DNA of 64,000 nucleotides. It comes from Bryoerythrophyllum caledonicum (Eukaryota; Streptophyta; Bryopsida; Pottiales; Pottiaceae). The position numbers were made by a program, and so were the translations under genes. Where the stretch lies: contig OZ020519.1 of NCBI GenBank assembly GCA_963971425.1, forward strand, positions 7,704,028 through 7,768,027, given 5' to 3'. Position 1 is the stretch's first letter, and each line of letters opens with the position of its first letter. The notes below the pieces were generated by a model that worked only from the letters and a program-made list of their open reading frames with translations, did not search any database and was not told the DNA's origin. Positions 12,307-64,000 of the stretch are shown here, one piece after another.

Positions 12307-13240
12307 CCCCTAAAGGACCAAGGGTCATAAAATGGCATTTTGAAGGTTTGGTCAAGTTCCAATGGTGTCAATTTCTATCATTCTTCTTTAAATTTTTTAC
12401 TATAGAAGGGCATTACTTTAACCTTAGTGGGAGATTTTTTTTTTCTCTTGAATCCAACATTTATTGAAAAATTTATAGGGTTTTGAATTTCAAATGAGGA
12501 GAGCCGGCACGTTGGGCACCTCCAAAAACTTTTGCTAGGACACTCTATTGATTGTGAGATTTTCAATACTTGCAAGTAATATTATTTCCTTACATATTGT
12601 CAAAAAAACGTCTTGTCTTTGGTGAAAACTAGCATATTAACCCAAGTCAAACATTTTTATACATTGTCACACATTGTTGGGCAAGGTACCAAAAAAACTT
12701 CTTATTTTCCATGTAAAACTTAGAGATCTTCATATATTTGACCTTTTATTTTTTCCACAACAATATGGTGTAAACCTTCTTATTGACCATTCGGATTATC
12801 AATCTAAAACATATTAAGTCCACAAAAAATATAATTGTGAATTGGCAATTTTTGAACCTCCATTCCTTGCACAATTGTATTAAATATGCTACATCCCTTC
12901 CATACCTCTAAAATTGGTGCACAAGGAACTAACATCACGGCTATCTTGATGGTAATGAATTTAGACCTTGTGTACTACAAAAACTTGACACCAAGTGAAG
13001 TCAAAGTTTGTTGGTCTACACAACGCATGAACCATTTTGCTTGACTTCAAACACTATAATCTTTCAATCCCTGCAGTCAAAGTTTATGAAATTTTATGAG
13101 GATGTTACTTAATAAGTCTTAGTTGACATCCTAGAGTTAGATGTAGAAATAAAAGTTTTGATTTTGCTCCTTACTTATTGCCCTAGAACAAGCAGTTTTG
13201 AAGTGTTTTTGGTGTGAAAAACGCCTCGGGCCTTTAGGGG
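12307..13240 (+). mobile_element. TTAA-type element, family A, well-preserved termini
   Basis: A 934-bp element with TTAA at 12303-12306 and 13241-13244. The left end CCCCTAAAGGACCAAG and right end CGGGCCTTTAGGGG are inverted. It is the best reference copy for the family in this window. Non-coding. Confidence 0.82.
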
Positions 13241-32690: not shown

Positions 32691-35395
32691 GACGATGAGC
32701 TTCAAGAGTCGTCAGACTCCGACTTTGATTAGACTCCACCAATAGCCAAGCAGAAGACCCGACAATATGATAGAAACCGTCGCTACTACTATGAGTGGGC
32801 AACGCGGTTTCCATGGGCAGAAGGGGTTATGCAAGATGGCTACGACTTTGTGGAGTGCATCATGTGCACTAAAATTGAGGGTCGGCCTAAGCTGATGGCA
32901 GCAAAGACTGACACACTTTTCAAGCATGAGGGTAATTGCAAGATACATTCATATATCCTTGTGGTACTTCACTATAATTCGTGGAAAACAACTCTAATAT
33001 GCTTGTTATTTGTGTGCAGGCTAAAAAAGATGATCTGGCCAAGGGGCTCATGAAGAGACACAACTTCCTTGCAAAGAATTGTCACCATCAGAAAAATGTT
33101 GTCATGTTTGCAAAGAAACCTCTTGAGTCAATCTTACAACAAGTGAACAACATCAATGGAAAAAAAAGAAAATTCAATTTGCAACCCTCTTGCAAGTTCT
33201 TCAGAAAGGGAGGCCCATGCAAAACTTTCAAGATATGGAGGCTTTATTCAATTACTTGGAGTTCCCTAAAATTCCGCGGATGCATTGAACCCACTATTCG
33301 GGCTGGAACATGGCAGCGTCTATGTTTGATGTGGTATGTTTGTTGATGTCAACTTTTGTCAATCAACAATGAATGAATTTTTTTGGAGGAAATAGCTTCT
33401 TTTGTCTTTGACTTTAGGACTTTTGGTTGGAGTCATGACAATAATTTGCAAGTCTTTCAATTTAGGTCTTTGAGTTGGACTGCCATGAATGTAATTTGCA
33501 ATAGTTTGTTTTTGTGGACACAAAGGTTCTACATGTTCTCTAATGTGTTCTCAATGTGTTTGCAGCTGCAATGACACATCAAGGACAATGATAGCGCTGC
33601 TAACTTCGTCGCCTTTAGTTGCAATGAAGTTACTACGAATGATATCACCTCATGGATGTCAATTCATGCATATATGATGCATAATTGACAATGTTTGCCC
33701 TTGTTGTTGAAAGTCCACGAAGTTGTGGATGGGACGAGGACAGATGACCTTCTTGTTGTCCTTATTAACGTCCTTAAGGAGTTTGGAGGCTTGAACACGT
33801 TAAAGATTCAGCGCAAGTTGGTTAGTTTTGAAGCGGATGGAGCAACGGTGATGTAAGGGAAGGTTATCGGAGTCTCTACACAACTTCGTGAATCTCATGC
33901 GCCTTTTGCACAAGCAGTGCATTGTTTTGCTCACAGGTGTAACTTGGCTTTCAAGAGCCTGAGCCAACTGAAGGTGATGGAAGCCATTGAGAGAGTCCTT
34001 GCATCCACGTACTTGTACTTTAGCAAGAGCCTGAGGAGAGTTCAAGACTTCAAGGAACTCGCGGAGACAATGGAGTGTAGAGGTTTGAAGCTCTTACGCA
34101 ATATATCTACGAGGTGGATTAATTTGCTAGACCCTCTCCGCTGGTTGGTCTCATAGTACAAGTTGGTTTTAACCAAAATGTACCAATCAAAGGCTTCAGA
34201 CGCAATTGCTTAGATGCTTATCTCATCATTCTCTCTCTTTATGTATTAATAATATTGTGATTGAGTGCATTTCAAATTCAAGTTCAGTTGTATTAATTTT
34301 GTGTGTTCTCATGTGTATTTTTTAGACTTGTTTCGATGAAATGATTGATCCTACTGTCCTTTTAGGCATGGTTGCCTTAATCCCGTTGGTGGAGACCATT
34401 GATGTTCTCATTAACTTTGCCTAGAAACAGAACGTGTTCATACAGGACTTCGTAGCTACGCTTGGCACATGTGAGTTGCAGCTGTTCAAGTTGTACATTG
34501 ATTCATCTACGGCGTTTGCAACTGATGACTTCAACAATTTCAAGGCGTTGATGGAGTTGGCGCATTACAACATATTTCTTCGATGGGATGTGGACTTGAA
34601 CACTCAAACTGAACGTTTGATGTGGAGGCTCCATCGCACCGAGGTGTCCGCCTTCTACAAGGACAAATCCATTGACATGACAATGTTCTCAGAAATGGCA
34701 ATGGCCATTCAAGCAGATTGCAAAGGTAACTTCTCTTTCTAATTTGAATTTTAATTTCCTTTGAGGTTTTAGTATGCATTCATTGAGCTCACTTGATTTT
34801 GATGTTTGTTGGTTGTAGAGGCAGCAGTGCATCTCACTGAAGAGCTACAACATCGATTCCCGTCTGTAGATATGCTTAATGCCCTTGGCATAGTGTATCC
34901 GCAGTATTGGGCAACTCCAGATTGTTTGGACACATTTCCACAACATCTCGAGATTGTGAAGCGTTTTTTTTGCGAGACCAAGAAAATCAAAGGTGATGGG
35001 GCAGCTGCTCCGAGGATAGTAGTGCCTGCACTACTAAACGGGTATGATCTTGAATCTGTGCAAAGTCTATTCAAACTCTTCATGCGAAGTAACTTTCAAC
35101 GTGCATGTGAGCCTTCATTTGACTTGAACCCACTTACAAAAATATGACGAGTTGCCCAATCTAATGGGCCTCTTGCGGGCCGATTTCCCACGTACATGAA
35201 ACTTGCTGAGGTGGTGATTGTGATGGTGTTGGATTCAGTGGAAGACGAGCATGTCTTCAGTTCCTTGTCATTTTTGAAGTCCAAAGTGCGAAGTTCTCTA
35301 GATACTAACCTTGGCATTGTGGTTGGGATGTGCTGTCAGAAGTTGTTTCATGTAGACTTTCCCATATGGAAAGGCTTATGATCATTAGTACAATA
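32690..35395 (+). mobile_element. hAT-family transposon (copy 2), degenerate transposase
   Basis: More complete than copy 1. The N-terminal zinc-finger segment (FVECIMCTKIEGRPKLMAAK, then a KHEG Cys/His tail) lies at about 32840-32940. The catalytic-fold pieces at 33590-34150 include FSCNEVT-like and HCFAHRCNLAFKSLSQL. The middle region is at 34330-34740, and the hATC block at 35196-35380 reads VEDEHVFSSLSFLKSKV. Coding pieces are separated by short GT-AG introns. Several in-frame stops (for example after the SDSDFD acidic start and in the EADGATVM segment) mark it as dead. It is a close paralogue of copy 1, with the same order and direction. Confidence 0.85.
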
Positions 35396-37816: not shown

Positions 37817-40800
37817 CTATTTCATGCTCCAGTTGTTGGCAGTTGCATCTCGGTGTCTAGCCTCTTCCACTCTGGCGAGCTCATTTACCGCATTATCCCG
37901 AACTCGGCTGTTGAGGAGTCGTTGAGCAATTCGTTCCTTGGCAGTGGGGGTCTTCTTCAACAATGCAGTCAGTCCACCTCGTGCCTTCTTCCTTCCTCCC
38001 CCAATCTTTACACTGTCTTCTAACTCTTCGCCATATCCTTGATGGCTCTGTGACAAAGCGGCCGTTCTCAGAACGGTATCGTTATGCTCTCTGTCTCTCT
38101 TGGATTGTTTCCGCTTGGATTCGTCTCTTTTCTTCCTTGCCTCAGCTTCATCCCTCTCTCGCACATTAGCAATAGCTTGCATAGCCAACTCGACCTCAGA
38201 AGGCACACCCACTGATGAACTTGAGGCGATGAGCTCCTTCTCTTTAGATGCTGCATCAATTTCTGGTGTTTGCTGCAAGGGTTCACCATTGTCATCGCGT
38301 GGGATGATAGGTCCGTGAAGGGGACACCGGCGCAGGTCCCTTCGCGGGCAAAGTCCTCCTCCTTTCTTAAGTGGTGCTCGACATGGCGTGATTTCCGTCT
38401 CCGGTGGCTTGTAAAAAGAAGCACGTACATTCATTTCCGCAATTCTCTCGACTGGAATCATTGCGTCGGTGTCAACCCTGCCCCAATGATTCTCCATCTC
38501 TAAGCCTCGCTGATTGGCAGGAACGTCACTCTTTGAACCCCAACTGTCCAGGAATGAACCGTAAGAAAGAACAGGGGCCTTTTCTAATAACTCCGCCCTT
38601 GGACCGGTTTCCTCTTTCTTCTTCTTCGCTTCAGACTGATTAACTGCTGATGAACTGGCTGCCAGGTCCTTATTTCTTGGAGCAGACATTTTCGAATCTG
38701 GACAGGCCAAATTACCACGTCAGAGATTGGTGATGGCTTAAGAAACGAGGTTCAAAATACTTGGTAAATACTGTTTACACCCACAGTACTTGGACAAGTC
38801 GAGGGATCTACATAAAGAGTCGAGCGAAACCGAAAAGAAGTCCCCAAATGTAATCGAATAAGAAGTTGAAGGCCAAAACAACAGAAACTCTTTGATCGAT
38901 TTGCCGCTCACCTTACGCTACCGAGTCACGTAAGAAACGTTCATAAAAGGCTCACCTTTTTCAATAATAACACGATGTGATGTGCTTGTCGTTTCAACTA
39001 GGTCACTATCTGTCTCCGCATCTCCTGCTTCCCATATAATATCCTCATCATCAACTTCATCAATTGCAGTTCTGCTGGTTGAGGCTCTTTCTGTGCGGTC
39101 AATGCCTAAGCTTTCGCACTTGCCGAGCGAATCCAGCAGTTGTGTCCTCAAGTCAATCACCTCTTTCAGCAATGCATCCCGAGGTCGAGTATCCGACGTG
39201 TCCACCCTCATAAGAATCGAAAGCCACTCCTGAGTGGTTCGAAGATGACTTGAAGCCACCAATTTGTAGAGGTCCCGAAGAGATTCAAACACTGCTGAAT
39301 TATCCGCGGTTTCTGCCTGCATCAATCAAATGATCAATAGTTAGAGCTTAAGAAGCACTTCGTAGCACGAGAGGTTAAAATTGACCTCTGAAACGCTTCC
39401 GCATCTGACGACTGCACTCCAAATACCTACACGTTATCCAATCGCACCACATCCACATAAACGCCAATGCTAAAAGTCCACAAAAAAATATTGTCGAGAC
39501 GTACCGGCTTCTCAGAAATAGGGAGCTCTTCCGAAACCTCCTCATGAAGTTGCCGCCTCAGACTGGAGTCACCGTATTCTGCATAAACATCGTCGTCTCC
39601 GAAAGCAAAACTCTCCAAACCTGCTTCAGACACAAGGTCGTTCCCTTCTGCATCTGGTGCAGACACAGTCTCAGGCTCAAGTATTTTGCAGCACTCAGCT
39701 ATTTCGTTCAGGGTTGATTGAATCTCTACTCTCAACTCAGGAAAGTCTTTGCATAAGCTCTCGTACTTCTTCTGGATCAGTGCCTGGACAACATAAAATT
39801 TGAAGACAATCAAATGTCGATGATTGGAACATATCTACCTATTCCAGCAATACCACACTTAAATCAAAGTCCTGCTCTGCAGCTGAATGAAATGTTGACG
39901 AATCTGGGAATGATATCACCCCGACAAGATCAGACACTCTCTCACGGACACACCTGTGTTCTAGCTTCTTTTTCTTGTCGCTGCTGCTCCGCCAACGCAG
40001 CTGCAGCTCTAAGATTGGGAAATTGCAGCCTGAGAGTCTTCTTCAAATACTCGTACCCCAAACGAACTTGCTTGTAGTGCACTCCAAAGGAATCGTTCCA
40101 CTTCTCCACAAGCTCCATGCTCGAGGTTTTCAGCAAGGTAGCTCGATCCGGCGGCTTCGGAAGAGGGTAGTCATCTCTGTACCCAATCGTCAGCAGCATG
40201 AACGTCTCGAACTTCGGAACAAGCAGCGATCGGAAAAGCTTCGACCGCATGAAAAGCTCATCGATGAGTAGAACTGCGAGGAAACGCACCTGTCAAGAGT
40301 AACACATCTCATCAACATCCGCCACATGAAAAAGGCTTCACACATAACAACAATTCCGCAGACGTACAGTGAAAAACAAGCACAATATACCTCACCTCCA
40401 ATCCACCAGCTTCACAATATAAAAAAAATGCCTAAAGCCCTAGCTAGCTAAATAAAATAAAACCCTCTACAATCAACATTCAAAAAATCTCGTCCATTAT
40501 CAATTCTTAACAGTGCGCTTTCCAAACACATCTCACCATTGCCACCATTTCCACTAACTTTACCAAAAACTAACTCCCAATGAACATCAAATTCCGCAAT
40601 AATAAAGATAAAACTGCGATTCCAGTGACTTCAACATCTCATATCCAAAATCAATTACACTAATCCTTGTTAATTCAAATCATTCTCCCTTCTAAATAGA
40701 AATTAACGATACTTTTTCCAGAACAAACAACCATTGCCACCATTTCATCAGTGAAACCTAATCAGCCCAAAAACCTTGATTCTCATGTCCATAATCGATT

Positions 40801-46400: not shown

Positions 46401-47809
46401 GAATGAAAATTTAAAGACATCGTCACTAACCAGATAAAAATTTAATGGCTCGGTAAATTTATAGTTCTTACCATCAGATTTAGATTCAGAACCATCAACT
46501 GCCCCAGCAGAAAGAATCTGTGTAGTATCTGTTGTGCCAGATTGTTCAACAGGAGAAGAAACCTCCTTCGAAACCTGCACGACAACACTGCGCTCTACCT
46601 CTGGCTGAACTTCGCTTTCAACTGCAGAATTCTCGTCCCCATTCACTCTTGCTTCACCTTGAAAATTCAACAACAAACCTATCAGTGCGCAGAAAAACAG
46701 ATGCTGTTCAAAAGCTGACAACTATCCACTTAATAAAAACAAGAAAGATATCATGAACGATGACAAGGTAGTATTAAACATACCGGTGATAAGGCTGGCT
46801 TTGTCATTCTCGCCGGCTGGAGATGCAGCATCTTCTCCAGATTCTTGCACTTTCCTGCGCCGCCTATTATTGTGGCGTTGTAGCTTGAACCGGCAGCTCC
46901 GTTTACCTTCGTCGAAATCTCCCAACACATGAAACCTACTCGATCAACTATTCCGTGAGAAAACCATGACAAAAGGAAATGATGCCCCCATAAAGTCATG
47001 AAACTCTACATCCTCAAGCCATGTGACACCAAACAGCACTGTCATACTAGAATAAATATGACAGTCGCTCCAACTTAAGCTACTTGCATTCCACATCATC
47101 CCCACCTGCTTAAAGAAAACTCGGTACAATTACTAATCCACTCGAGATGATGATCACAATGTCTGTGAAAGCTTCCACATGCTGTCATTTGCCCAACTAC
47201 ATAAGAAAGATAAAATACTCTGCCTGCACCCTTGGCCTAGTTAAACTCTCGTTACATCACTGCACTAGTAGTTGACCACAAAAACTTCCCTTGCTGGAGA
47301 ACAACCACGAACAGAAACATGGATTCTGAAACTTACTTGCCACACTGTTGACAGTATCGATGGGCAATATCACGCAAGATAACCGTCGTCGAATTCGCAC
47401 ATTGCAAACAAACCCGGTGCCGCTGATGATACCCCTTCAAGCGAGCCAGGTCGGCTCCGCAGGCCGGAACCTGGCACCGAGCAGACACCTTGGCCCTCTT
47501 CGAGATCCGGCTCCCTCCCTCTTGGTCATCATCTTCATCCGTACACGCACAAGGAACTCTCCCGGCGAGGAAATTCGGGCAATCGAGGCGTGGATCGCGA
47601 AACAACTCGTACGAAGAGCTCGATTGAGGCGCCTTTCCCTCCGACAAACTCGGCGAGTTCAACCCGGTCCACGACTCGCCTACAGCAAAGTCTCTGCTCT
47701 GCTCGAGATTAGATTGCAACTCGGGAGTCGCGTCAAACGGAGGGTTCGCCAGAAGGAGCACGCTGTCCCACTCCCAACCTGCCACTGAATCACCTAAATG
47801 TTGTCCCAT
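43483..47809 (-). CDS. SPL7: SBP-box transcription factor, SPL7 (copper response) type, 11 coding exons
   Basis: Nuclear regulator of copper-deficiency genes through GTAC elements (known for SPL7/CRR1). Exons (5' to 3'): 47809-47337, 46935-46784, 46657-46472, 46184-45913, 45771-45697, 45567-45460, 45286-45163, 44975-44831, 44646-44511, 44383-43919 and 43734-43483. All phases agree; the product is about 795 residues, against 801 in Arabidopsis SPL7. The SBP domain (about 110-185) has both zinc sites (RCQVPACGADL, HRVC, RYCQQCGKFH, KRSC) and the basic tail RHNNRRRRK. Downstream blocks match SPL7: CPTGRISFKLYDWNPGDFP, LEGYIRSGCTILTLF, GRNLLQRDTK and GPVFIEVEN. A C-terminal hydrophobic helix (about ALAVASATAACAGLCVVL) is also a family trait. 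The intron after exon 7 uses a GC donor (45162-45161). The last acceptor is the least certain. Confidence 0.92.
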
Positions 47810-48440
47810 AGCTCCACCGCCGCATAGAGACCCTCCTCTCTCTCGAAACCCCTAACCACACACTCCTCACCAAAAGAAAAAAAAAAGAAAAAAAAGTTCC
47901 TAAAACTAAACTAAACCATCACGAAGCTCCGAGCACCACCAAATATAGCGGCATCCACTCCACTCCACGAACACAGGCTCTCGCAAATCCGGGTGACAGC
48001 AGATAGAGATGCACGGTATCTACAACTACGATTCGGGACCAAATCCAACCAAAACTCCGCCTCCAGAAAACCGGGAGCAGCAGAATCTCCCCGGCTCTGA
48101 TCTGCTTTCAAAGCTCAACGTAACGAAATCCTGAATCGGAGTCTCCGCTCTCCGGAGCGGGAATGCGAGAAGGAGAAAGCAAGCCCTAGGTGCGAATGAT
48201 TGGAGCGATTCGGCACCAAACCAAACGGCGAAGCGAGGAGAACCGCCGCGCGACGCCGCGGAGGTCAGGGAAGCTCGCTAGCGAGGGCGCTCCGTCGCCA
48301 TAGCCACGACCGGGCGCTCATTCGCCATCGCCAATCCTTGCTCCGCTCTCGACTTCAGTTTGCCTCCATTGCGGTCTGAATCCGAGTTTGTGCCTCCGTT
48401 CGTCGAATCGTCGGATATATTTCGTCGATAATACATGGAT
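47810..48440. promoter_or_regulatory. 5' leader and promoter region of the SPL7-like gene
   Basis: GC-rich relative to its surroundings, with a purine/pyrimidine run at about 47873-47895. No ORF with support. A leader intron is possible. No discrete promoter element could be assigned. Confidence 0.35.
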
Positions 48441-50099: not shown

Positions 50100-50740
50100 T
50101 TATTCTGCGAAGCTGGCCGAGGCGCGGCACTGATACCCAGATGGGCGGTGGGAGTCCGCGGTGCAGTAGCACCAGTAGTGCGGAGAGCAGAGCGGAAAGT
50201 AGTCCGGGCCCTTCCTGTGCAACACCTGGGCAAACAGCTCAGGCTCGAAAACTCTCCTCGGATCGTGTAGCTGCTGCATCTGCAGAACCTCCGCGATGTT
50301 GGCAGCCGGGAGGTTGTCTCGCACCTTGCACTTGGGGTGGCGCATGATGCGCTCATGGTTTTTGCCCCAGTGCGGTCGGCCGTGGTACTTGCACAGCGTC
50401 AGCTGCTCCACCGTCTCCACCAACGCCGACAGTTTCGACGACTTGTAGGGAACAAGGGCAGAGTGCGAATGGAGGAATTCGACGTAAACAACGTCCTCGT
50501 AGCCTCTGGCCGTGGCCACCAAGTTCTGGTTCCCTTGACCGAACCGAAGCACGAAGTACCCGGGCGACAGGCACCGCGTGATGTTGCGCTCCGCCAGGCA
50601 AGCGTCGGCTATTGCTAGCTCCGTGCTCAATACCATCTTCACGTCCTCCACCCAGTCGCCAAACTGGGACAACTTGATGGCGAACTCAGCGTCTTTCGTG
50701 AACACGCCCGGGAATTGCACGTCGAAGCTGCAGAGACTTC
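50100..50740 (-). pseudogene. L-gulonolactone oxidase-like, 3' fragment
   Basis: About 210 residues of the C-terminal half of a plant L-gulono-1,4-lactone oxidase-like protein. The enzymes are FAD-linked and act in ascorbate-related metabolism, often secreted. Evidence: CKYHGRPHWGKNHERI, matching the family HWGKN motif; DPRRVFEPELFAQVL, matching the DPxxxF segment; and a Cys-rich tail, PLCSPHYWCYC then SGYQC, before the stop. The N-terminal FAD-binding domain (about 350 residues) is not found in the 500 bases upstream, where the reading frame breaks. An acceptor-like CTCTGCAG just before CSFDVQF could mean an upstream exon beyond what I can see, but the likelier reading is a truncated copy. 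Confidence 0.75.
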
Positions 50741-51229
50741 AGAGACTTTCGGAATCCCGGTTACAATGACGCCAATCCTCAAGATTGTCGACAGCCCCAG
50801 CAGCACCCATGTCCCCACTCCAGATGACCGCTTCATTGTTTTGTGAGTACTCCAGCTCCTTTACAAGTAGCACATGTATTAGCTTGAGAAAACTAGGCGT
50901 TTCACACATGCAGAAGAACAAACATTCATACTGACCATGTTATTCACCTTTCCTTGCAGATGATTACGAAGTTTAGAGGTTGAATAGTTCGTGACCCTGG
51001 TGAGCAAGTGAGAAACTTCAGCAACAACACCATACCAACAACACAGTATTCGTGAAACAACTGATCGCATCTGCAAACGTCATATGACGTTATCTACATG
51101 ACCATGTCAACTTGAGTTCAAATGGCCTTCTTATTCATAGGCAAATTGGATGGTTGAAGGTGTTCAATTCTTTAAAGTTCTACACAATTTCACACCAAAA
51201 ACACTGTTAAAGTGCTGATTCTGGTTCAA

Positions 51230-51690
51230 AGAAGAACGCCGATCTCCGAAGGAGACCGGCGTGAATAAAGTATCTGTTCGTTCCACTACTAAGACCATGC
51301 CCACCGGACAAGGAATTAGTAACATTCTGGTTCAATAAATATACGGCTGCTTTTTTTTCAGGTTTAGCCTTAGGATTTTAATTTGGACTTATCAAGTAAT
51401 ATACTCACACGGATTGAAAGATTGTAGGTATTGAAGTAGAAAAAATGGTTCATTTTCTTCCGAGTGTTGAGTGGATCAACAGACTTTGACAAAGTCTTGC
51501 ACTATGCAAGGTCAAAATTTGTTACCATCGTGGTAAGCATTTTATTAGTTCCTTGTATCTAATGACTAGAGGTAGAGAAGGGGTCGAGTATATAAAAAAC
51601 AATTGTGCTGGAAGTGGAGGTTCAAAAACTACCATTTCACGTTCAATATATGCACATTGCTTACTTGTTGGTTAAGGGGTGGGTTTATCT
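51230..51690. repeat. Dispersed ~100-bp repeat plus family A fragment
   Basis: 51230-51330 is a copy of the 6480-6600 repeat. 51400-51640 contains words from the reverse strand of family A (GGATTGAAAGATTGTAGG, TTAGTTCCTTGTA). No ends are preserved. Confidence 0.55.
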
Positions 51691-51783
51691 TGAAACCCCT
51701 TGAAAACCCAGGCATCAATCCCTGATACCCGTCTTTATACCAAAAGCCTTATACCAATCGGAAGCCCCAAACGTCCGCCGTGG

Positions 51784-51919
51784 ACCTCCTATTACCGTGC
51801 ACCTCCTATTACTGTGCACCTCCTATTACTGTGCACCTCCTATTACCGTGCACCTCCTATTACCGTGCACCTCCTATTACCGTGCACCTCCTATTACCGT
51901 GCACCTCCTATTTCCGTGC
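51784..51919. repeat. Minisatellite, 17-bp unit x 8
   Basis: Eight direct copies of ACCTCCTATTACCGTGC with single-base variants. It yields a Tyr/Pro/His repeat ORF in all frames that is not a gene. Confidence 0.95.
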
Positions 51920-52008
51920 ATCTCCAACATATTTTGCTCCCATTAGAGCATCCTCAATGCATACCCTGGACTCGACCGTGAATTGCACCTTCCAGGATTG
52001 CTATCTTG

Positions 52009-52045
52009 TGAGCGGCGAGCGGCGAGCGGCGAGCGGCGAGCGGTG
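52009..52045. repeat. Short tandem repeat, 7-bp unit GAGCGGC
   Basis: About five direct copies of GAGCGGC. Non-coding. Confidence 0.9.
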
Positions 52046-52783
52046 AGCACTGATTTTTTGCAATTTATTTGGTACTATTTTTTGAAGAATTTGGAAAGGG
52101 TCGCCTATGGCCGTGGGTTCTATTAAAACTGTGTTGACATATGAAAAAAAAACTGAAATTTTCGACGACAATGTACTTGGACGTATGGAAGTATGAGTTT
52201 TTTAGGATTGATTGCAACAATTCTCACCTCATTGGAAGGGACGCTTATGGGTGAGGATTTAGATTTCAGGGTACCGCGACAAGTCAATAGAATATGAAAT
52301 ACAACAGAAAAAATTGAAGTAATATTGTTTAGGGTGGCAGGCAGTATCCATGTGATACTTAGTTCATACCCTTATAATACCTTGGTGATATCCATGAAAT
52401 ACCTAGGTGGAAAAAAATAGATACCATGGAGATACCCGTTGGGTCCGAACCACTCTAAATTGAAACAATCTAATTCTTAGCGAACGGTTGTTTAAAAAAG
52501 AGCAATGCCTAAGATACAAAGCCTATAAACTTAGAGGACATGTAACCAAGTTACAAAGGTTTTTTTATTATGAATCAAGTTTTAAATCGTAGATAGAACG
52601 ATATCTTTTAATATCGAAGCATGCCGTACGATGTTTTACGTAAGACATACGTGAAAAGAAAGGGATTTTGACAGGAATGAAGATGATTCACGATGGGACA
52701 ATATTGAAGACAACCAGCTGGTAGTGTGATGGTAAACAAAGCAATAAACCAATGCAATGGAATCAAGATTCCTCCGCGAAAAG
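52046..52783. other. Intergenic; probably includes 3' UTR of the minus-strand gene
   Basis: No gene seen. The stretch near 52784 is expected to be 3' UTR of the ParB/methyltransferase-like gene. Confidence 0.4.
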
Positions 52784-55700
52784 TCAGCTGGAATCACTAT
52801 CGTCAGAAAAACTATCACTACGCTCCGAGCCACTAACGTAAGCCTCCCCATCTATGAACGGACATGTAGTAACTCTACGTGAGACTATCGTTTGAAGACG
52901 TGGAGGGGAATGTTGTGCGGCCATGGCGTCTGCAACCTGGGCATCCCAGGGATTCAAATGGAATCGTCGTGTGGGGCTCTTCACCTCCAATAATAATGGA
53001 GACAGCACTCCAACATGAGTCCTTGACAATGATGCCATCAACGACGAAGGCCGACTGCACAAATTAAAGTCTCGTTAAGAATTTAAGCTTGAGACAAGCT
53101 AGAACTAAAACCGCATTCCAAAACTAGAACCGAATCAGGGTAGGACTTACTCACAATGTCTCTTGGGGACGGTCTTCACCTCTGGCTCGTCGTCATCAAC
53201 CTCCAAGGGGCGCTTGCGAGAGCCCTCTGCCACCACCGGTGGCGGTGCTGACTCGACCTCAACAATGTTCGGGACCAAAGGAAGAAGGACTTCATCCACC
53301 AACTCTCGGTCCTCCTCCAGTGCCAAAATGTGCCGCTTTAGCGCCTTGCAGGCTTTAATAGACGCCCCTTCATTCAAAAAAACAAATCATACGATGTTAG
53401 CTATGATACGAAGGTAAAACTAAAGAATTTTGTAATGGAATGAACTAACCTGTAGATGCTGTGAGATCCAAGACAATGTCCTCGTGCTGTGTGCAGAGAT
53501 CAATCAGAGCCTCCATGAGGTTCGTAGACTTTTCGCGAGCACCACGCCATGGTACGTCGCTATCGGCCCTCATAGTCAACGTCTCATGAGTAATGAGATT
53601 GGTCATGTGACCATCTGAAGACAGATGAATCCCGTCTCTTTGCAACTCCATCCTATCAAAGAATGAGAAAGGAACCGCGGGATCCAGTTTCCTCACGAAG
53701 CACTTCACAAGAAAGCACTTGTGAGTGCGCCCAGGGTGGCCATCGCGAAAAAGTGGTAGCCCGTTGATGGCAAACCACTTTGTCTCCTCGACAAATCCTG
53801 CCCAATCAGCCCAGGCTGAAAGTTCATTGGAGATGAACTTCGAATCCGGGTAGAACACGATAAGCGGCGCCCCGTCACGAAGCAACGCCCCAACTATCTC
53901 AAATGCCCGGTAAATCCAATGGGATTCTTTCTTCCCTCCGTCTGATAATCGGGTTGGAAGCTTGTTCCAATTTGGTACGTCGATGCCGCCATCAATGTCG
54001 GGGACCGGTAAATCCTCTGGTACGTCCAAGAGTACCATATCCGCCAAACCTAGAGCACAATCCAGATCCTCATGTCGCCAATGCCGTGAGCCCGAGTGCT
54101 CCTTCAAAAACTTGCGAAGCTCCTTCCAGGCCTCTGGTTCGTCATCCTCCACAACGACGCTGTCAAATTGAGACATAATGGAGAGGGCACTCTCACACAT
54201 CACCTTCACAGCAGCAGAAGACTGAGGAAGATCAAATAATGGTATCGAATACACCGTCTGAGAGGGCTTCACATCAAAGGTAGAAGGTCGGCTGCTAGCT
54301 GAGGGTGAAACGCCCATCGTCAAAGTCACCGCAGGAGGGACTGCGAATCCCCCCAATCCCCCCAATTGAGTAAACAGCTTCTGGGGACCTTCCTTCGCCA
54401 CCAACGCCGCGAACTCCTTGTACCTCTCCTTCGTCTCTTTCTTCTCCTTCTTCGAACTCTCCTTCTCCAGCCTTGCAGCCTCCCTCTCTTGTTCCTTGAT
54501 TACTGCCTTAGCGGCTTTCTCGGCAGCCTTGGCTTTGGCCTTCTCGGATTGCTCCTCAGACGCTGCCAACGGAGCCGCCAACAAGGGAAGGACGCTGCCA
54601 ACCACAGGAGGCACCGCCATGGACTCGCATGCCACTCGAAGCTGGACCTCGTCTCCAGGTGTGGGATCCACCTCACGCATCTCCAAGTACCACGGGCATT
54701 GGAGGAGGTGGTGAACAGAGAACCGACGCCTCTGTGAATCTGTGAAGATACACTCTGGTGCAGAAGTATCTATCCACTTTGTGAAACGGGTGGGTAGATC
54801 TCCGGGCAACAAGGATCCCTGTGCCACGAGCACCCTCCAAAAATATCGCATCACAGCTCGCTTCAGAGCCTTCTCGCATCCGTCTTGCGCCATAAACTCC
54901 TCGCCCTTCGTGTAGGAGCCCCCCTTGCCGATGAGAGTACAGAACACCTTTGTCCACAACGTCATGCTCTTTGCCTCAATCCATTTCCCAATGGCAGGAA
55001 CGGGATTTGGAAGCCCGGCAGTCTGGAGGACAATGTTGTCCTCAAGAAGAATCTCTGCGTAGAGTTTCTCAGACTCTTCTTCTAGCTGTGAAACGAAATC
55101 CACATAGTTAAGAATTGATGATAAAGATAACATTCGGAAATAATGAGAATATCAAGAAAAATTAAACATTACCCCAGCCCAGAACGCTGCCTTGTCAATC
55201 CAGCCTCGAAGAACCTTGTCAGACGCGGGCGATGCGGGGAAGTTATACTCCATCCTACTGCCCTTGCTCATGTTCCACCACCTGCACCAGCGCGTCTTGA
55301 ACTTCGCAGCTACCCTAGCTGTAGCGATGAGCTGGAGTTTTTCGGGAGTCATCTCGGGCCGCACCTGATAAACATCATAGTGCCGATTCACCTATACTCC
55401 AATATCAATAATTAGAGTGGACTCTACAAGGTCAGAAGTTAAAAATTTGATATCGATAGGAATGGAGTATATACATATACCCTACCTCCTTGAAGAAATC
55501 CTCCCCGTTTGCCGGGTTGGCAATTGCCAACAACCGAGTGAGCATGGTCTAACAAGTCGTCTTCTTCTTTTGTACAGCCTCAGTGCAGCGGCTCACCAAC
55601 TCTGCAGCACTTCCACGCCGATCCTCACTGACACCCGTGACCAAGGTATCCTTAAACTTTTGGATCTGCTCCTCTTGAACAGCAATCAGGTCCCGCTGTG

Positions 55701-58700
55701 GACAACATAAGGTCGTGATCAGTATCAATATTCTGAACTAGAATATTGAAGGGAGAGTAATGGCAAGAGCTACATGTTCATCATAATCATAACGTACCTC
55801 AAACATGAGCTTCACAAATGCTTCGAGTCATATGATACCACTTTCGTTGTCCCTTCTTTGACCACTCAAGGACACTCAGTTCGTAATCATCATCGCTGAT
55901 GAGCCCCTTTAATTGCTCAAACTCTAAGAGCCCGAAATGCTGAACACGCTTTAGATCGTGAGTGAGGTGTTGCACAACGTGGTCTGATTCTTTTTGCCTT
56001 CGACAAAAGAGAATTTCAATGTCAAAAAATGAAGTACAATGGTGAAAGCAGCTGAAACAAACGAATGCCAGGAGTATCTAAGTTCGTGCGCACCTGTTCA
56101 AGTCGGTCATCACGTTGAGCAAGATGTGTCGGTTCTCGATAGTTGGCTCAATCACCACGGCTCTAACGGGCACATGAAAGCTGACATCGGATGGGTACAG
56201 TTGGGATATCACCTCTGTCCAAGCCATATGGCGATGATTGCCATCCCACACGAAGAAGAATTTCTCTGAAAACGCCGAGTACTCCGGTCGAGTCTTCAAC
56301 AGCTCCTCGAACTTCCGGTCCTCTTCAATCCAAAGCTCTGACCATGATGACCTGTCTACTGGTTGCACCCGCTTCTCGACAAGGGAGAAACTCCTCACCG
56401 ACACATAAAAACAAGCAGAACCAGGCCGATACCCATTGACGAACTCCCCCTTCAACTTCTCGACATCACTTCTAAGAGGTAACCTCACCTCAGTCATGGG
56501 CACCATTCGGCAGAGAGGAATTGGGAGATCACCACCAAAAGAGCAAATGCTGCTCTGTAGGATGTCGTATGAGGTCCCACGGATGGACCTCCGCAAAGAT
56601 TGAAGTGTTGGAGCCAGCCCATGCTCATCAACAAGTTCACCAACGCGTTCTTCGTCCTCTAGAATCTCAAGATCCTCACGCGAAGAAGAAGCTGTGGGTC
56701 CCAAACTCTCAACCTGCAATAAGTATGCATAAGAAATCCAAGCAACAAACTGCATCCACCTGTCACATATACTTGAAATGAATCTAGATATATATCTTGA
56801 CCAGACCAGTCAACTTAATTCTACCGCATGAATTGCTACTTGTATGGCAAACCATGGTCATGAAATAGCTCGGTACGAAACGAACCAATGACCCATCCAC
56901 ACCCCAGCCTAGACCTCACCATCCATCCCACACCCACTCCCCACCCCGCCTACACACCCCAGCCTCCCACCCACAATCCGCACTCTCACTCTCACGACAA
57001 GCTGCACGTTCCCAGCTCATAGTTCTGGATCATTGACGCAAGAATTATCGAATCCATGAACATAAGAATGATCTCATGTTCGTGACCATCAAAGGATAGA
57101 ATGATATGCACGCGCGTCGACGACTTTAGCCAGCAGGGATAGGACTCTTGAATTTTTACGAAAATCAGTGACCCCTGAAAATGGCTTTCGGATCCGAAAG
57201 CCATTTTCAGGGGTCACTGATTTTCGTAAAAATTCAAGATTCCCTCCCCTGCTGGCTAAGGTCCATCGCGCGCGCACGAGCAACGACGAATCTAGCATAA
57301 ATGCATGCACACAAGGCAGAGCTCAATACAGTCTCTTACCCCTACCCCCCCCGGCCTTGAGATCAACAACACTCAAAGACTAGAGAATGTTTTCCCTGGA
57401 CCACCCCTCGCACACTCCCACGTCGAGCCCCACCCACACATCCCAGCCTCGCACCCACACTCCCCACCCTTCCCTCACTCACTCATCACCCTCCCACCTA
57501 CTCTCCTCACCCTCACTCCCTCTCCTGTATGCATGATATGAGCTTATAGACCTCGAACACTGATGCAATAATTTCGGAATCCATGAAACCGATCCTGTGA
57601 TCGTGATCACCACAGGAATGAAAGATATCCATGCGAGTCAAAGACCTTAGCCAGCAGGGATAGGATTCTCAAATTTTTACGAAAATCAGTGACCCCTGAA
57701 AATGGCTTTCGGATCCGAAAGCCATTTTCAGGGGTCACTGATTTTCGTAAAAATTCATGATTCCCTCCCCAGCTGGCTAAGGTCCATCGCGCGCGCTCGA
57801 GCAACGACAAGATTACCATTCATGCACGCACACGAGGCAGAGCTCAATACAGTATCTTACCCCAACCCCCCCGGCCTTGAGATCAACATCACTCCTAGGC
57901 TAGAGAATATTTTCCCTCGACCACCCCTCGCACACTCCCACGTCGAGCCCCACCCACACATCCCAGCCTCGCACCCACACTCCCCACCCTTCCCTCACTC
58001 ACTCATCACCCTCCCACCTACTCTCCTCACCCTCACTCCCTCTCCTGTATGCATGATATGAGCATATAGACCTCGATCACCGATGCAATAATCTCCAAAT
58101 CCATGAACACGATCCTATGAACGTGACCATCAAAGGATTGAATGATATGCACGCGCGTCGACGACTTTAGCCAGCAGGGGAGGGAATCATGAATTTTAAC
58201 AAAAATCAGTGATCCCTGAAAATGGCTTTCGGATCCGAAAGCCATTTTCAGGGGTCACTGATTTTTGTTAAAATTCATGATTCCCTCCCCTGCTGGCTAA
58301 GGTCCATCGCGCGCGCACGAGCAACGACAAAACTAGCATGAATGCATGCACACGAGGCAGAGCTCAATGCAGTCTCTTACCCCTACCCCCCCCGGCCTTG
58401 AGATCAACAGCACTCACAGACTATAAAATGTTTTCCCTGGACCACCCCTCGCACACTCCCACGTCGAGCCTTACCCAGACTTCCCAGCCTCGCACCCACA
58501 CTCTCCACCCTTCCCTCACCCTGTCATCACCCTCCCACCCACTCTCCCCACCTTCACTCGCTCTCCAATATGCATGAAACGAGCTCATTGACATAGACCT
58601 GGATCACCGACGCATGAATTTCTGAATCCATGAACACGATCTCATAATCGTGACCATCACAGGAAGAATAATATGCACGTGCGTCGAAGACCACAGCCAG

Positions 58701-61700
58701 CAGGCATAGGAATCTCAAATTTTTACGAAAATCAGTGACCCCCGAAAATGGCTTTCGGATCCGAAAGCCACTTTCAGGGATCACTGATTTTCGTATAAAA
58801 CCATGATTCACTCCCCTGCTGGCTAAGGTCCATCGCGCGCGCACGAGCAACAACAAGACTAGCATACATGCATGCACACGAGGCAGAGCTCAAAACAGTA
58901 TCATACCCCTACCCCCCTCAGCCATGACATCAACAACACTCACAGACTAGAGAAAATATTCACTGGACCACCCCTCGCACACTCTCACGTCGAGCCTTAC
59001 CCACACTTCCCAGCCTCGCACCAATACACCCCACCCATTCCTCACCCACTCATCAACCTCCCAACCACTCTCCCCACCCTTACTCCCTCTCCAGAATGCA
59101 TGAAATCAGCTCATTCCCCTGGATCACCGACGCAAGAATTACCAAATCCATGAATACGATCTTATGATCGTGACCACCACAGGAATGAAAGATAAGCACG
59201 AACGTCGAAGACCTTGGCCAGCAGGGGAGGGAATCATGAATTTTTACGAAAATCAGTGACCCCTGAAAATGGCTTTCGGATCCGAAAGCCATTTTCAGGG
59301 GTCACTGATTTTCGTAAAAATTCATAATTCCCTCCCCTGCTGGCTAAGGTCCATCGCGCGCGCACAATCAACGACAAAACTAGCATGAATGCATGCACAC
59401 AAGGCAGAGCTCAATACATTCTCTTACCCCTACCCCCCCCGGCCTTGAGATCAACAACACTCAAAGACTAGAGAATGTTTTCCCTGGACCACCCCTCGCA
59501 CACTCCCACGTCGAGCCCCACCCACACATCCCAGCCTCGCACCCACACTCCCCACCCTTCCCTCACTCACTCATCACCCTCCCACCTACTCTCCTCACCC
59601 TCACTCCCTCTCCTGTATGCATGATATGAGCTTATAGACCTCGAACACTGATGCAATAATTTCGGAATCCATGAAACCGATCCTGTGATCGTGATCACCA
59701 CAGGAATGAAAGATATCCATGCGAGTCAAAGACCTTAGCCAGCAGGGATAGGATTCTCAAATTTTTACGAAAATCAGTGACCCCTGAAAATGGCTTTCGG
59801 ATCCGAAAGCCATTTTCAGGGGTCACTGATTTTCGTAAAAATTCATGATTCCCTCCTCTGCTGGCTAAGGTCCTTCGCGCGCGCACGAGCAACGACAAGA
59901 TTACCATTCATGCACGCACACGAGGCAGAGCTCAATACATTATCTTACCCCAACCCCCCCGGCCTTGAGATCAACAACAAGGTCAGACTAGAGAATATTT
60001 TCCCTCGACCACCCCTCGCATACTCACACGTCGAGCCCCACCCACACATCCCAGCCTCGCACCCACACTCCCCACCCCACCCTCACCCACCCATCACCCT
60101 CCCACCCACTCACCCCACTCTCACTTCCTCTCAGTATGCATGATTTGAGCTCATAGACTGGGTTCACCGACGCATGAATTACCGAACTCATGAACACGAT
60201 CTTATGATCGTCACCACCACAGGAATGAAAGATAATCACGCGCGTCGAAGAACTTAGCCAGCAGGGGCAGGAATCTCAAAATGTTACGAAAATCAGTGAC
60301 CCCTGAAAATGGCTTTCGGATCCGAAAGCCATTTTTAGGGGTCACTGATTTTTGTTACATATCATGATTCCCTCCCCTGCTGGCTAAGGTCCATCGTGCG
60401 CGCACTCTTGACAGCAAGACTAACATCCTTTCTTGCGCTCAAGGCAGAGCTGGAAACGAATTCAACCCCGTACCCCCACAGCCAAGACCTCAACGAAACA
60501 CACAGTCTTTGGAATTTATTCGCTGGACCTCACGACGCACACTCTCACGTCGCGCCCATCCTGCACTTCCCATCCTCTGACCGACACTCTCTCTTCGTGC
60601 CCGTGCAACACCACAGAAAAAGCGCACCAAAACCCTAACGAATTCTCCCAGATCAACCAAATTACAAGGAATGGCAAATACGGAACACGGAGATGTGAAG
60701 AAGACGTACTTGAAGTCCTGCCATTTTCTCCAGCTCCGAATCTGCTGCCACCAAACTCCGCCGCTTACTCCCCGTGCACGCAACCTGCAAGAACAGAGAT
60801 TTTCACTACATTCAGCAACTCCGCCATGAAGACTAACAAAATTTCAGTGAACATCTCCCGAGAAGCAGGTGTGAAAACATGAGAAGTTCTCGAATGCTTG
60901 AAGAACCGAACCCGGATGAAGAAGGAGATCCTGAACCCTGCTCGAGGTTGCAACGTGAGCCGTCTGCAGATGAGTGACTACCGACCGATGAGACGAACCA
61001 ACGGGCCCCACATTAATCCTAAACCCTAATTATCGGAGGCAGTATGGCCTTTTTGGGAGCCCAATATCGAATATGTAAGGTTCTGAAACCAAATATGTGA
61101 CGTATGTCATTAATGCACTGATTCTCGGGAGCTCTATAACAGGTCGGTAGCTCATTGACTAAACTGAACCACGACGATAAGAGTCACTCGTGGTCTTAGA
61201 ACAGGTACAAGAACGGGAACTGATTGATTGAAAATTTATCTAATTGTGACATACCTGATTTAGTGGGTCCCTTTGAAGTTCCAACAATTTGTCCGCGAGG
61301 TCCTCAACGCTTCTTCGATGAGACGTTACTCCTTTGCCGGATGCCTTTGATGAGGAACCGTCTCCGACCAGTGTGGGTCGTGATTGATTTCTCAGCCTCC
61401 CGTTTTCTTCGCTTGAGTCACTATTTTGGCAGTCAGAATGGCCTTCACTGTCTTCAGAACCTTTATCCACTTGTAACGAGGTCTCACTGGTACTAGATCT
61501 TTGATACATTTTCCTGGAGTTTCCTTCTATAGTGTTTGCCTCTTCAAAATGCTCATGAATACTTACGATTGTGCAAGACTCCTGATTATCAATACAGGAT
61601 GCCAGAATCAGATGAACCATTGGACTCTCTTCTATTCAGCCACATAAAATGATCTAAATATATTGAATATTTAAACATACCTGAATCTGTGATTGGACTG

Positions 61701-61884
61701 GCTGCGGTCCCTGGTGGATACTTGACAAAGCCCGAAAACGTTCGCCCGATTCCGATGTATCGACTTCCAGGTTCTGAGCAGCCAACAATGACTGTTGTCT
61801 GCGCCGATCCTTTCGAGCCCGCGTCTGCTTCGGATTGGAGAAATTGGTACTTCGCTTCTTCCGGCCACCTATCTTAGTCATCAT
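52784..61884 (-). CDS. Large gene with ParB-like domain and beta-class DNA methyltransferase-like domain
   Basis: Unrecognised as a named gene. Proposed exons (5' to 3'): 61884-61681, 61581-61255, 60784-60710, 56713-56094, 55997-55798, 55695-55486, 55391-55173, 55085-53450, 53367-53151 and 53054-52784; about 1,325 residues. Residues 1-200 are basic then acidic/Ser-rich. About residues 270-395 look ParB/sulfiredoxin-fold: MTEVRLPLRSDVEKL, then FFVWDGNHRHMAWTEV with the DGxHR signature. A Lys/Ala/Glu coiled coil lies near residue 820. The C-terminal half follows beta-class amino-methyltransferase order: ADMVLLDVPEDLP where (D/N/S)PP(Y/F) is expected, GAPLIVFYPDSKF, then NLMEALIDLC, DIVLDLTASTG (SAM motif I position) and ILALEEDRELVDEV. 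The acidic tail ends SDSFSDDSDSS. The motif IV and I changes suggest a non-catalytic or altered enzyme. The exon 5-6 stretch does not read cleanly (about two breaks), so the gene may be decaying or that part of the model is wrong. Whether exons 1-3 belong rests on phase agreement across a 4-kb intron. Confidence 0.6.
57120..60385. repeat. Tandem array, ~520-bp unit x 7, each with a long palindrome
   Basis: Palindrome centres (GGATCC) lie at about 57192, 57713, 58233, 58759, 59280, 59801 and 60320, so the period is 519-526 bp. Each palindrome has arms of about 65-70 bases with few mismatches; the core GGCTTTCGGATCCGAAAGCC is kept in all seven. Between palindromes each unit carries GCGCGCGCACGAGCAACGAC-like sequence and a C-rich tract (CACCCACACTCCCC type). 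57305-57650 and 59393-59738 are almost identical at a distance of 2,088 bp (four units), a higher-order duplication. ORFs here are repeat artefacts. It lies in the proposed intron 3 of the ParB/methyltransferase-like gene. A degenerate C-rich partial unit lies at 56880-57000. Confidence 0.93.
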
Positions 61885-62559
61885 CTACAAGATAGCCAAA
61901 CCACTCATCCGTTCTCTCTTTTAACATCCGAGCCTCCCTATGCATCCAAACAACTCAGTGCAATACTCCTGCGTTGCGGTGATAGAGCCCCTCTTCTACT
62001 CAATCTTGCTTCCGTTTACACCAAAGATCTACTATTTAATATTAAGCTCTTCTCAGATCTAGTTTGTTACACGCTATCGCAAAGCCCTACAATAGCTCTC
62101 CAATATAATCCGCTGATCCATCCGTCAATTACGGGGCACAATTATTGTTAAGCATCTTCATGTTTGGAAATATACGATCCGGAAAATCTAAAGTTGTATT
62201 CATTATGTAACTACAACAAGACAATTAACAAAATTGGTAATCGGTATTCCAGCTCACTCCTTTCTTAATCCAATTTAATCTGGAAGATAAACTAGTGTCA
62301 TTGTACACTCAAGCCACCAACAGGCTAGAATGGAAGCACTCTCTATAGATTTAAGTATTTCCGCCCTAATTTCACTCATTCGTAATTTATAGATTTCCAC
62401 GTATGTTGCTATATATAAGAAAATATATTCTCTCAGTAATCAATTCTTTACCAGTTCAGTATTTGAACAAGCACAACAAGCTAGTTCTTACTCTCTTTCG
62501 CAATTCAGTTGTCATTGCACCCCACCCTCCTTTAACACCGCCTCTGATAGTCGTTGTGC
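61885..62559. promoter_or_regulatory. Shared upstream region between two divergent genes
   Basis: 675 bases separate the proposed start of the minus-strand ParB/methyltransferase-like gene from the ATG of the plus-strand ORF. AT-rich, no ORF of its own with support. It could act as a bidirectional promoter. Confidence 0.4.
62412..62419 (+). promoter_or_regulatory. Candidate TATA box for the plus-strand ORF
   Basis: TATATAAG, about 148 bases before the ATG at 62560, allowing a leader of roughly 115 bases. Motif and spacing only. Confidence 0.45.
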
Positions 62560-64000
62560 ATGGCGTCTCTTACTTCTCATCAAGGCGGTGCTCCATTTGT
62601 CGTGCCCATTGGCGACAATGGCACAGTCAGTATCTCCGAGTCAATGCTATGTGTTCGTTTTGGTTATCGGGCTGGCACAGTCCACATTGAACAAGAGGTC
62701 TATGATAGCAAAGGTATTCATGAGCAGTCCATTTATCAAGTGAAAGACAGTGACATTGGAGGATTTTTTTGGAGCTTGTGTCGTGGTTCATTCAAAGTAT
62801 TTGGTGTTACAGATGTTCAATTCGCCGCTCATGCGTCCGTAGCCGTCATGACTCCTCCGACCGATTCTGGTGATACCGTACTCGTGCCCGGTTTAGGCAC
62901 TAGGTCTAACCCAAGCGTCCATGTCCTTAGCGATACAGAGGAAGATGAACTATCTGATGTGAACCTTGCAGAGTCAAAGATCCCATGGACCTCAGCTCAT
63001 GAATTAGGTACTCGTACTAATACTAAACTGGTTCCATCATATGCTCAAGCATCTCCGTCTTATTCCTCAGGTAAGCCCCCCGTTTATCCTGGCTCGCGCA
63101 ACGTCAGGAGCATACTAATTCATGTACGGCATACATGTAATAGGAAAGGGTCCAGGTCTGAGTTGTCTAGAATTGATATTGATAGTTTCGATTTGAAACA
63201 TGTTAAGTATTTGCCTCCAAAGTATGATGGGGACGTGGTATTTGAACTTCCACCGCTCCCAGAGGGTATTCCTACACAGTACGGAGGGGGCCTAGATGGA
63301 ATGAGTAAACAGCACGATGGTCACACGTGGTGCAAGACAATGACTACAAATATCAAGAACGATTTTGGTCTGACGTATCGAAAATCTGTATATACGGGGC
63401 ATCTACAGTGCCCTAACATCAGTTGTGATTATCAGTCACGAAACGGTGGGCGCTCAAATCAGACCGAGTGGAGCGGGTTCGCGTTCACTCCATTTTCAGT
63501 GAAGGGAGCACCATCCGAGAAATCTACGCTCTCATGTAAGGTTTGCCAAACCCCTCCAATTTGTCTTGCTCTTTGTGATGCACGTATATACTACGTGACA
63601 TCTATCGATCACGATCGGACGCGCGCTGCAATTCATTTAGGTCATCATCTTCATCCTATCTCGAAAGGTGTAGATCAAGATGCCATGGACGTCATGCACG
63701 ATTGCGTAGCAAAAGAAGTCCAACGTACGCCCAAGGCTACTAATTCTGCAATTGTCATGGCCGCGAGCAAGAATTTCCTCTCCGACTACCTGATCCGTCC
63801 ACAGTCTAACTTGCCCAACCTTGAAGAAGCATCTTTGGATGCTGTCCTCGATCAATTCGAGACCCTTTCGTCTCCGAATATAAGGAATCTAGTGTCCACG
63901 TGCAAGAGGTTCTACAGTGGTGGGAAGGGTGTAATGGACAACATCATGGAGCTGAAAGAGTCGTCGAAATTCGTGTTCATTCACGAAAACAAGTTTTCCG
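62560..64000 (+). CDS. Long ORF, zinc-binding transposase-like protein, truncated by window end
   Basis: Open for 480 codons from the ATG at 62560 to the window end with no stop. I do not recognise a named family. The first ~170 residues (MASLTSHQGGAPFVVPIGDN start) end in an acidic DTEEDEL patch. From about residue 255 there is DGHTWCKTM, then Cys pairs CPNISC and CKVC, IYYVTSIDHDRTRAAIHLG and HHLHPISKGV. This Cys/Cys/His/His layout resembles the WRKY-GCM1/FLYWCH-type finger at the front of MULE-like transposases. The end, KESSKFVFIHENKF, may lead into a DDE domain beyond the window. Codon use and the long clean frame suggest a young or functional gene. A host regulator with a GCM-like finger is the alternative. 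Confidence 0.55.
   Translation, partial: MASLTSHQGGAPFVVPIGDNGTVSISESMLCVRFGYRAGTVHIEQEVYDSKGIHEQSIYQVKDSDIGGFFWSLCRGSFKVFGVTDVQFAAHASVAVMTPPTDSGDTVLVPGLGTRSNPSVHVLSDTEEDELSDVNLAESKIPWTSAHELGTRTNTKLVPSYAQASPSYSSGKPPVYPGSRNVRSILIHVRHTCNRKGSRSELSRIDIDSFDLKHVKYLPPKYDGDVVFELPPLPEGIPTQYGGGLDGMSKQHDGHTWCKTMTTNIKNDFGLTYRKSVYTGHLQCPNISCDYQSRNGGRSNQTEWSGFAFTPFSVKGAPSEKSTLSCKVCQTPPICLALCDARIYYVTSIDHDRTRAAIHLGHHLHPISKGVDQDAMDVMHDCVAKEVQRTPKATNSAIVMAASKNFLSDYLIRPQSNLPNLEEASLDAVLDQFETLSSPNIRNLVSTCKRFYSGGKGVMDNIMELKESSKFVFIHENKFS

Follow-up and report, generated by a model that had tools for sequence, protein, structure and literature searches.

A moss gene with a ParB/DGxHR-like region, an altered methyltransferase-like domain and an intronic palindrome array: a candidate accessory gene of a Mutator-like transposon

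Proteins that join a ParB domain to a DNA methyltransferase are known from bacteria, for instance the ParB-methylase Bce_0392 of Bacillus cereus (PMC5512222). In Arabidopsis, the VANC proteins of VANDAL elements are described as binding motifs that form tandem repeats within the introns of the element's own genes and in their upstream regions, and that evolve in concert (PMC5735166). Bacterial-type amino-methyltransferases acquired by eukaryotes, one of them in a bryophyte, are represented by the N4-methylcytosine (4mC) methyltransferase of Marchantia and by N4CMT of rotifers (PMC8885841, PMC12344493). Here we analyzed a stretch of 64,000 nucleotides from the moss Bryoerythrophyllum caledonicum (contig OZ020519.1, positions 7,704,028 to 7,768,027; hereafter the window), the minus strand of which carries a spliced gene combining a putative ParB/DGxHR-like domain with a beta-class methyltransferase-like domain, next to a divergently oriented transposase-like gene. 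Judging from sequence and by analogy with VANC, we give a probability of roughly 0.42 to the reading in which the gene is accessory to a multi-copy, Mutator-like DNA transposon of a plant and encodes a protein that would recognize the element's own palindromes. Searches of one open-access full-text library with the terms used showed no plant or eukaryotic ParB-methyltransferase gene among the titles and abstracts listed.

The minus-strand spliced gene is real, and its structure holds from exon 4 onward. From 61884 to 52784, a single intact frame of 1301 amino acids (aa) can be assembled from 10 exons and 9 GT-AG introns; in this model the exons have a mean GC content of 0.517 and the eight introns apart from intron 3 range from 0.24 to 0.45. 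Relatives were obtained by scanning genome contigs with exon 8, which returned two contigs, L002 and L003, of a metagenome-assembled genome (MAG; G001) titled uncultured Synechococcales cyanobacterium AVDCRST_MAG81, with 67 and 66% identity, respectively, over 545 aa. The exon 8 profile matched 1 of 388 genomes of the class, namely this one. Introns lie at the same places as in the window after exons 4 to 9 in L002 and after exons 5 to 9 in L003, and because of this both contigs are apparently eukaryotic contamination of the MAG, most likely from a plant. The intron sequences themselves have diverged, intron 7 being 66% identical where aligned. Exons 1 to 3 are without support from the relatives, whose contigs stop short of them, and exon 2 had no match in G001, the sole genome searched, which is a weak negative. 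The parts of the gene are as follows.

61681..61884, minus strand: exon 1 (putative), basic N-terminus; open frame from ATG with a GT donor, outside the relatives' coverage
61255..61626, minus strand: exon 2 (putative), acidic and Ser-rich; phase-compatible GT-AG exon
60710..60784, minus strand: exon 3 (putative); phase-compatible GT-AG exon
56714..60709, minus strand: intron 3, 3996 nt, with seven tandem repeats of ~521 bp
56094..56713, minus strand: exon 4, ParB/DGxHR-like domain, WDGNHR at 56231-56248; 59% identity to L002 over the aligned exon
55798..55997, minus strand: exon 5; frame broken near the 3' end relative to L002 and L003
55486..55695, minus strand: exon 6; in-frame TAG that is not present in L002 or L003
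55173..55391, minus strand: exon 7
53450..55085, minus strand: exon 8, a middle region rich in Lys/Glu and helical in appearance, followed by the methyltransferase-like domain (DVPE at the place of motif IV, motif X, start of motif I)
53151..53367, minus strand: exon 9, remaining motif I region and acidic strand, then a conserved RKRPLEVDDDEPEVKT.PKR that looks like a nuclear localization signal
52784..53054, minus strand: exon 10, acidic Ser-rich tail and stop

The initial annotation had read a methyltransferase fold in beta-class order in exons 8 and 9, and Pfam, profile alignments and shuffling all support a DNA methyltransferase fold of the beta class for the C-terminal domain. Once the two exons were spliced, the METHYLTRANSFERASE-like domain reached Pfam N6_N4_Mtase (PF01555) with 27.0 bits against a cut-off of 26.7 (E 5.2e-6); exon 8 alone gave E 0.76, and the L002 equivalent, with 25.3 bits, stayed just under the cut-off. 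The spliced exons also matched PADLOC MTase_II (E 9.2e-8), phrog_3008 (E 3.9e-6) and the CcrM model (E 1.1e-4, though with 21 bits where the cut-off is 830), and the nearest solved chains were those of DpnA (E 0.0016-0.0022). The two blocks VLDLTASTG and ILALEEDRE are indeed divided by an intron (53450/53367).

The fusion architecture proposed for the gene has its bacterial counterpart in five proteins (L057, L058, L061, L062 and L076) that carry a ParB domain and then a beta-class methyltransferase on one polypeptide; these were fetched by their ParB domain, and their methyltransferase part was read by eye. In an hhalign comparison, the motif X/I block aligned to the five fusions with E 1.9e-4, and to their methyltransferase part with E 6.7e-5, at no more than 48 and 64% probability. 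The N-terminal half of the domain aligned separately and in register, at P only 0.018, with DVPE placed on DPPY, and 0 of 200 column shuffles reached the profile score of either half. The profiles used throughout are thin: A2, A4 and A7 have two rows each and A1 and A5 three, A3 holds 5 of 11 bacterial ParB proteins picked by eye for both domains, and A6 holds 6 of 12 rows, with duplicates, the plant relative and L032 left out. Unlike the bacterial fusions, the moss gene is eukaryotic with introns, has a large middle insert, carries DVPE and TASTG for DPPY and F.GSG, and shows a DGNHR-type rather than an AG[HE].R-type ParB block. As a separate observation, a further bacterial locus (L075:1456-2796) has a ParB domain followed by a degenerate-looking methyltransferase, with APFIGHG at the place of motif I by eye, and may be a prokaryotic parallel.

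The beta-class order is kept in the moss domain, i.e., motif IV region, then X, then I, while the motifs themselves are altered. In all three copies, DVPE aligned to DPPY and occupied the place of the catalytic [DNS]PP[YFW], and LD[LI]TASTG replaced the F.GSG of the S-adenosylmethionine-binding motif I (F.G.G); DVPEDLPVP and TASTG were invariant in the three. Motif IV keeps its Asp and second Pro and motif X its Lys, and the acidic residue after motif I is also retained. The term methyltransferase-like is thus right and enzymatic activity doubtful, since the catalytic motif reads DVPE, not DPPY or SPPY, in 3/3 copies. An altered catalytic motif under constraint suggests a retained non-catalytic role, for which METTL14 beside METTL3 offers a parallel.

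Exon 4 quite probably belongs to the ParB/sulfiredoxin superfamily. It contains the DGNHR motif that had been reported for this gene (FFFVWDGNHRHMAW), and a strand, WDGNHRH and a helix succeed one another as judged by eye and in a low-confidence model. The WDGNHRH block is invariant between the window and L002, the rows of which are 69% identical in the two-row alignment A4. The window's own exon 4 had no Pfam, NCBIfam, PHROG or PADLOC match, and Pfam, NCBIfam and PADLOC gave no fitting match for the domain. For L002, the best of 38,880 PHROG families was phrog_1033 'ParB-like partition protein' (E 0.12-0.24), over the motif. The ParB/sulfiredoxin domain of the initial annotation was weakly borne out: a DGxHR-type motif lies between strand and helix, the profile tests gave a mixed picture, and the direct comparison with the bacterial fusions failed. 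The DGQHR/DndB-like family (TIGR03187) resembles exon 4 in having DG[NQ]HR after a strand and then a helix, in register, but there was no NCBIfam match and similarity past the motif was not significant. The score of a first DGQHR profile was reached by 4/300 full shuffles and 41/300 motif-keeping shuffles; that of a second, domain-only profile, which kept 7 of 10 proteins and whose pattern missed L031 (which has DGNHR), by 0/300 and 17/300, respectively. AlphaFold models of exon 4 alone (pLDDT 38) and from the two-row alignment (pLDDT 33) were unusable, and the Foldseek list for the former was meaningless. In bacterial genomes, the WDGNHR pattern occurred at 11 sites in 10 of 386, and it is only at the site on the contaminant contig that WDGNHR is read within a frame of at least 60 aa.

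Intron 3 harbours seven ~521-bp units, and every unit contains a single near-perfect palindrome (arms of 68-71 in six, 40 in one); these are the only loopless palindromes scoring at least 16 in the 64 kb.

57122..57263, no strand: palindrome 1, centre 57192/57193, arms 71, 5 mismatched pairs
57643..57784, no strand: palindrome 2, centre 57713/57714, arms 71, 8 mismatched pairs
58163..58304, no strand: palindrome 3, centre 58233/58234, arms 71, 2 mismatched pairs
58720..58799, no strand: palindrome 4, centre 58759/58760, arms 40, 4 mismatched pairs
59210..59351, no strand: palindrome 5, centre 59280/59281, arms 71, 2 mismatched pairs
59731..59872, no strand: palindrome 6, centre 59801/59802, arms 71, 8 mismatched pairs
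60253..60388, no strand: palindrome 7, centre 60320/60321, arms 68, 9 mismatched pairs

A 50-bp palindrome pattern with up to 3 mismatches was observed at 7 sites, compared to 0 in 100 shuffles. Within the inner 80 bases, four of the seven palindromes are perfect and the other three pair at 36, 37 and 39 of 40 positions. Mean pairwise identity among the units falls from 0.971 in the central 50 bp to 0.877 in the 50 bp flanking it to either side, and further out it is 0.778. Four homologous palindromes, spaced by about 107 bp, are found upstream of exon 4 in L002, at the same place as the window array; only two of them reach the score used for the window, and their best 50 bp are 86% identical to those of the window (E 5e-10) despite near-saturated synonymous sites. 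Elsewhere in the G001 MAG the motif (up to 3 mismatches) was absent, being confined to the L002 contig. Beside TCGGA, CTT is present in 14/14 window arms and GTC in 7/8 L002 arms, so that two bases differ on both arms, which we read as a concerted, symmetric change. The centre TCGGATCCGA is intact in 7/7 window palindromes and 3/4 of those in L002. A DNA dyad is favoured, though not proven, over an RNA hairpin because the latter would not need paired central four bases. The likeness to VANDAL and VANC would lie in an accessory gene beside a Mutator-like transposase and in concerted tandem motif repeats within the element's own introns; the long palindrome of the moss gene differs from the directional 9-mer described for VANC (PMC5735166).

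Coding sequence is conserved between the copies in a manner indicating that the gene is under purifying selection. The ratio of nonsynonymous to synonymous substitution rates (dN/dS) over the methyltransferase part was 0.029 for L002/L003 and 0.071 for window/L002; over the whole of exon 8 it was 0.098 for L002/L003, 0.128 for window/L002 and 0.151 for window/L003, the ratios involving the window being rough because dS is about 1.6-1.9, near saturation. For exon 4, synonymous sites are saturated between the window and L002 (pN 0.208, pS 0.797, pN/pS 0.261). As for the window's own copy, it has probably decayed. Both relatives, L002 and L003, have WYHMTLDAFVKLMHE at the end of exon 5 and KKKTSCTTQFQRYL in exon 6, with no stop; the window is 2 nt shorter in the 3' part of exon 5 and has a TAG in exon 6. 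As the relatives read through both exons otherwise, the window copy would have a frameshift and a stop. The 1301-aa frame depends on shortening exon 6 and on using an exon 5 donor that looks weak, and with the stronger-looking donors exon 5 goes out of frame and exon 6 contains the TAG. The copy is therefore either recently broken or spliced otherwise, and a sequence error is possible. The claim of one spliced gene is thus borne out by the 10-exon chain and by introns common to the relatives, but this holds neither for an intact gene spliced at its most obvious sites nor for exons 1 to 3.

The neighbouring gene is divergently oriented.

62551..63999, plus strand: transposase-like protein, 5' part, with a frame still open where the window ends; 73% to its relative G001:C80

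The C80 relative, from the same MAG, has a 719-aa frame plus a putative further exon. Its best Pfam match was Transposase_mut (13.3-14.9 bits against a cut-off of 21, E 0.013-0.038), in the portion of the protein that lies past the window's end; the window part (62551-63999) had no fitting Pfam match. By eye, the C80 protein also shows a D, D with C..H, and E pattern that we take to be of the Mutator-like element (MULE) type. The neighbour has a dN/dS of 0.117, and one IMG/VR scan revealed no relative of it. The transposase-like and ParB/methyltransferase-like genes co-occur in the window and in the same MAG. From its name alone, AVDCRST_MAG81 may derive from the Avdat desert-crust study (PMC7901476); 'AVDCRST' is absent from that main text, where the crusts are described with little to no moss. 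If the attribution is right, the assembly of two divergent copies from a sample with little moss would fit a high copy number. Three contigs of the MAG (L002:1-4691, L003 and L008, i.e., G001:C58, C134 and C80) look eukaryotic, with introns and relatives of plant-window genes, and such contigs inside a cyanobacterial MAG could mislead gene catalogues.

The origin of the gene had been left between old domestication and mobile-element cargo. The evidence leans to a mobile element because of the transposase-like neighbour, the two divergent copies in one MAG, the intronic palindrome array and the damaged window copy. In the transposon reading, the protein would have a ParB/DGxHR-like domain joined through a middle region to a beta-class amino-methyltransferase fold with a replaced catalytic motif (DVPE), and would most likely no longer carry out ordinary methylation. 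Its two nucleic-acid folds would instead serve to recognize DNA, presumably the dyad-symmetric palindrome array in the gene's own intron. This recognition may mark the element for anti-silencing or may assemble a transposition complex with the divergent transposase, both genes presumably belonging to a single multi-copy element. A bolder version, which we put forward tentatively and consider unlikely, is that a plant transposon self-recognition system arose from a bacterial ParB-methyltransferase fusion, a catalytically altered protein reading a centromere-like palindrome array in its own intron and co-evolving with it to protect, count or mobilize the element. Transposon self-recognition and escape from silencing are known in detail for few plant elements. 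If true, this would be an independent, directly testable solution built from prokaryotic DNA-modification folds, an altered catalytic motif and an own-intron palindrome array, and bacterial ParB-methyltransferase parts would have been reused in plants as DNA readers.

Several points weigh against the transposon reading. The assignment to ParB is weak, and a profile comparison failed to align the block with the ParB portion of the bacterial fusions. The transposase call, weakly Mutator-like, rests on sub-threshold Pfam scores, and the two genes are joined on no contig other than the window. No repeat pair fitting terminal inverted repeats was found in 50700-57000 or 60700-64000, each searched alone, nor was a target duplication found; the element would run off the window, with one side lying outside it. 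A palindrome-binding domain such as a helix-turn-helix was not identified in the protein; the L002 palindromes are imperfect (18 to 21 of 25 inner pairs symmetric), and the arrays could be satellites or hairpin RNAs. Finally, the window copy looks broken.

A somewhat unlikely alternative is a host-domesticated chromatin or DNA-recognition gene, i.e., an anciently acquired bacterial or phage ParB-methyltransferase fusion, now nuclear and without ordinary catalysis, in which case the transposase-like neighbour would be there by chance and the window copy would be a decayed paralogue. The very strong constraint on the methyltransferase-like domain between L002 and L003, the conserved basic/acidic stretch in exon 9 and the introns common to divergent copies fit this explanation. 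However, the transposase-like gene accompanies this one in both the window and the MAG, and purifying selection is possible for transposon genes too, as the ratio of the neighbour illustrates.

That the locus is an ordinary decayed repeat appears improbable. Its palindromes would then be an unrelated satellite or a foldback miniature inverted-repeat transposable element, its ParB motif a matter of chance, and the methyltransferase-like domain a dead relic. While the frameshift and stop of the window copy agree with this, as does a ParB signal that is largely the motif itself given the motif-keeping shuffles, and tandem repeats amplify easily, purifying selection was seen in every exon 8 and neighbour comparison, the WDGNHRH block is invariant between divergent copies, and the palindrome core is alike at the same place where synonymous sites are near saturation.

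We regard it as very unlikely that the protein is a working amino-methyltransferase (N6A or N4C) with unusual motifs that marks element or host DNA, as the Marchantia and rotifer enzymes do. Its fold is complete in order and the motif residues listed above are retained, but DVPE takes the place of D/S/NPPY in 3/3 copies and motif I is without F.G.G. Rotifer N4CMT, which is active with SPPY, lost its activity when SPPY was changed to APPA (PMC8885841). Compared by description only, N4CMT further differs in having a chromodomain, and the Marchantia enzyme is described without added domains (PMC8885841, PMC12344493).

A fragment of an endogenized large virus or prophage-like element is the least credible explanation, for although proteins of phages and conjugative elements repeatedly carry ParB and methylase domains (PMC5512222) and giant-virus insertions are reported in Physcomitrium (PMC12344493), no viral relatives of the gene were found in four IMG/VR scans, tblastn against phages and plasmids, including 50,697 phage records, gave nothing significant, and introns lie at identical places in the other copies.

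Further features were noted in the window, in which there was no tRNA and no Rfam match at gathering score. Immediately downstream of the gene lies a 17-bp minisatellite of 8.7 copies (51778-51925). A dispersed repeat family of ~240 bp, 69-72% identical and in both orientations, is present at 51408-51643, with copies near 1333-1583, 3904-4142, 5636-5879 and 12837-13073. Two series of broken frames (27889-29811 and 33857-35144), three fragments of which had no Pfam match over the cut-off, are presumably hAT-type transposase remnants. Ordinary host genes by Pfam include an aldo/keto reductase (380-796), RCC1 (22274-23215), DUF2043 (37820-38719), ALO (50103-50738) and SBP (47336-47851), the SBP domain being a mark of a green-plant genome.

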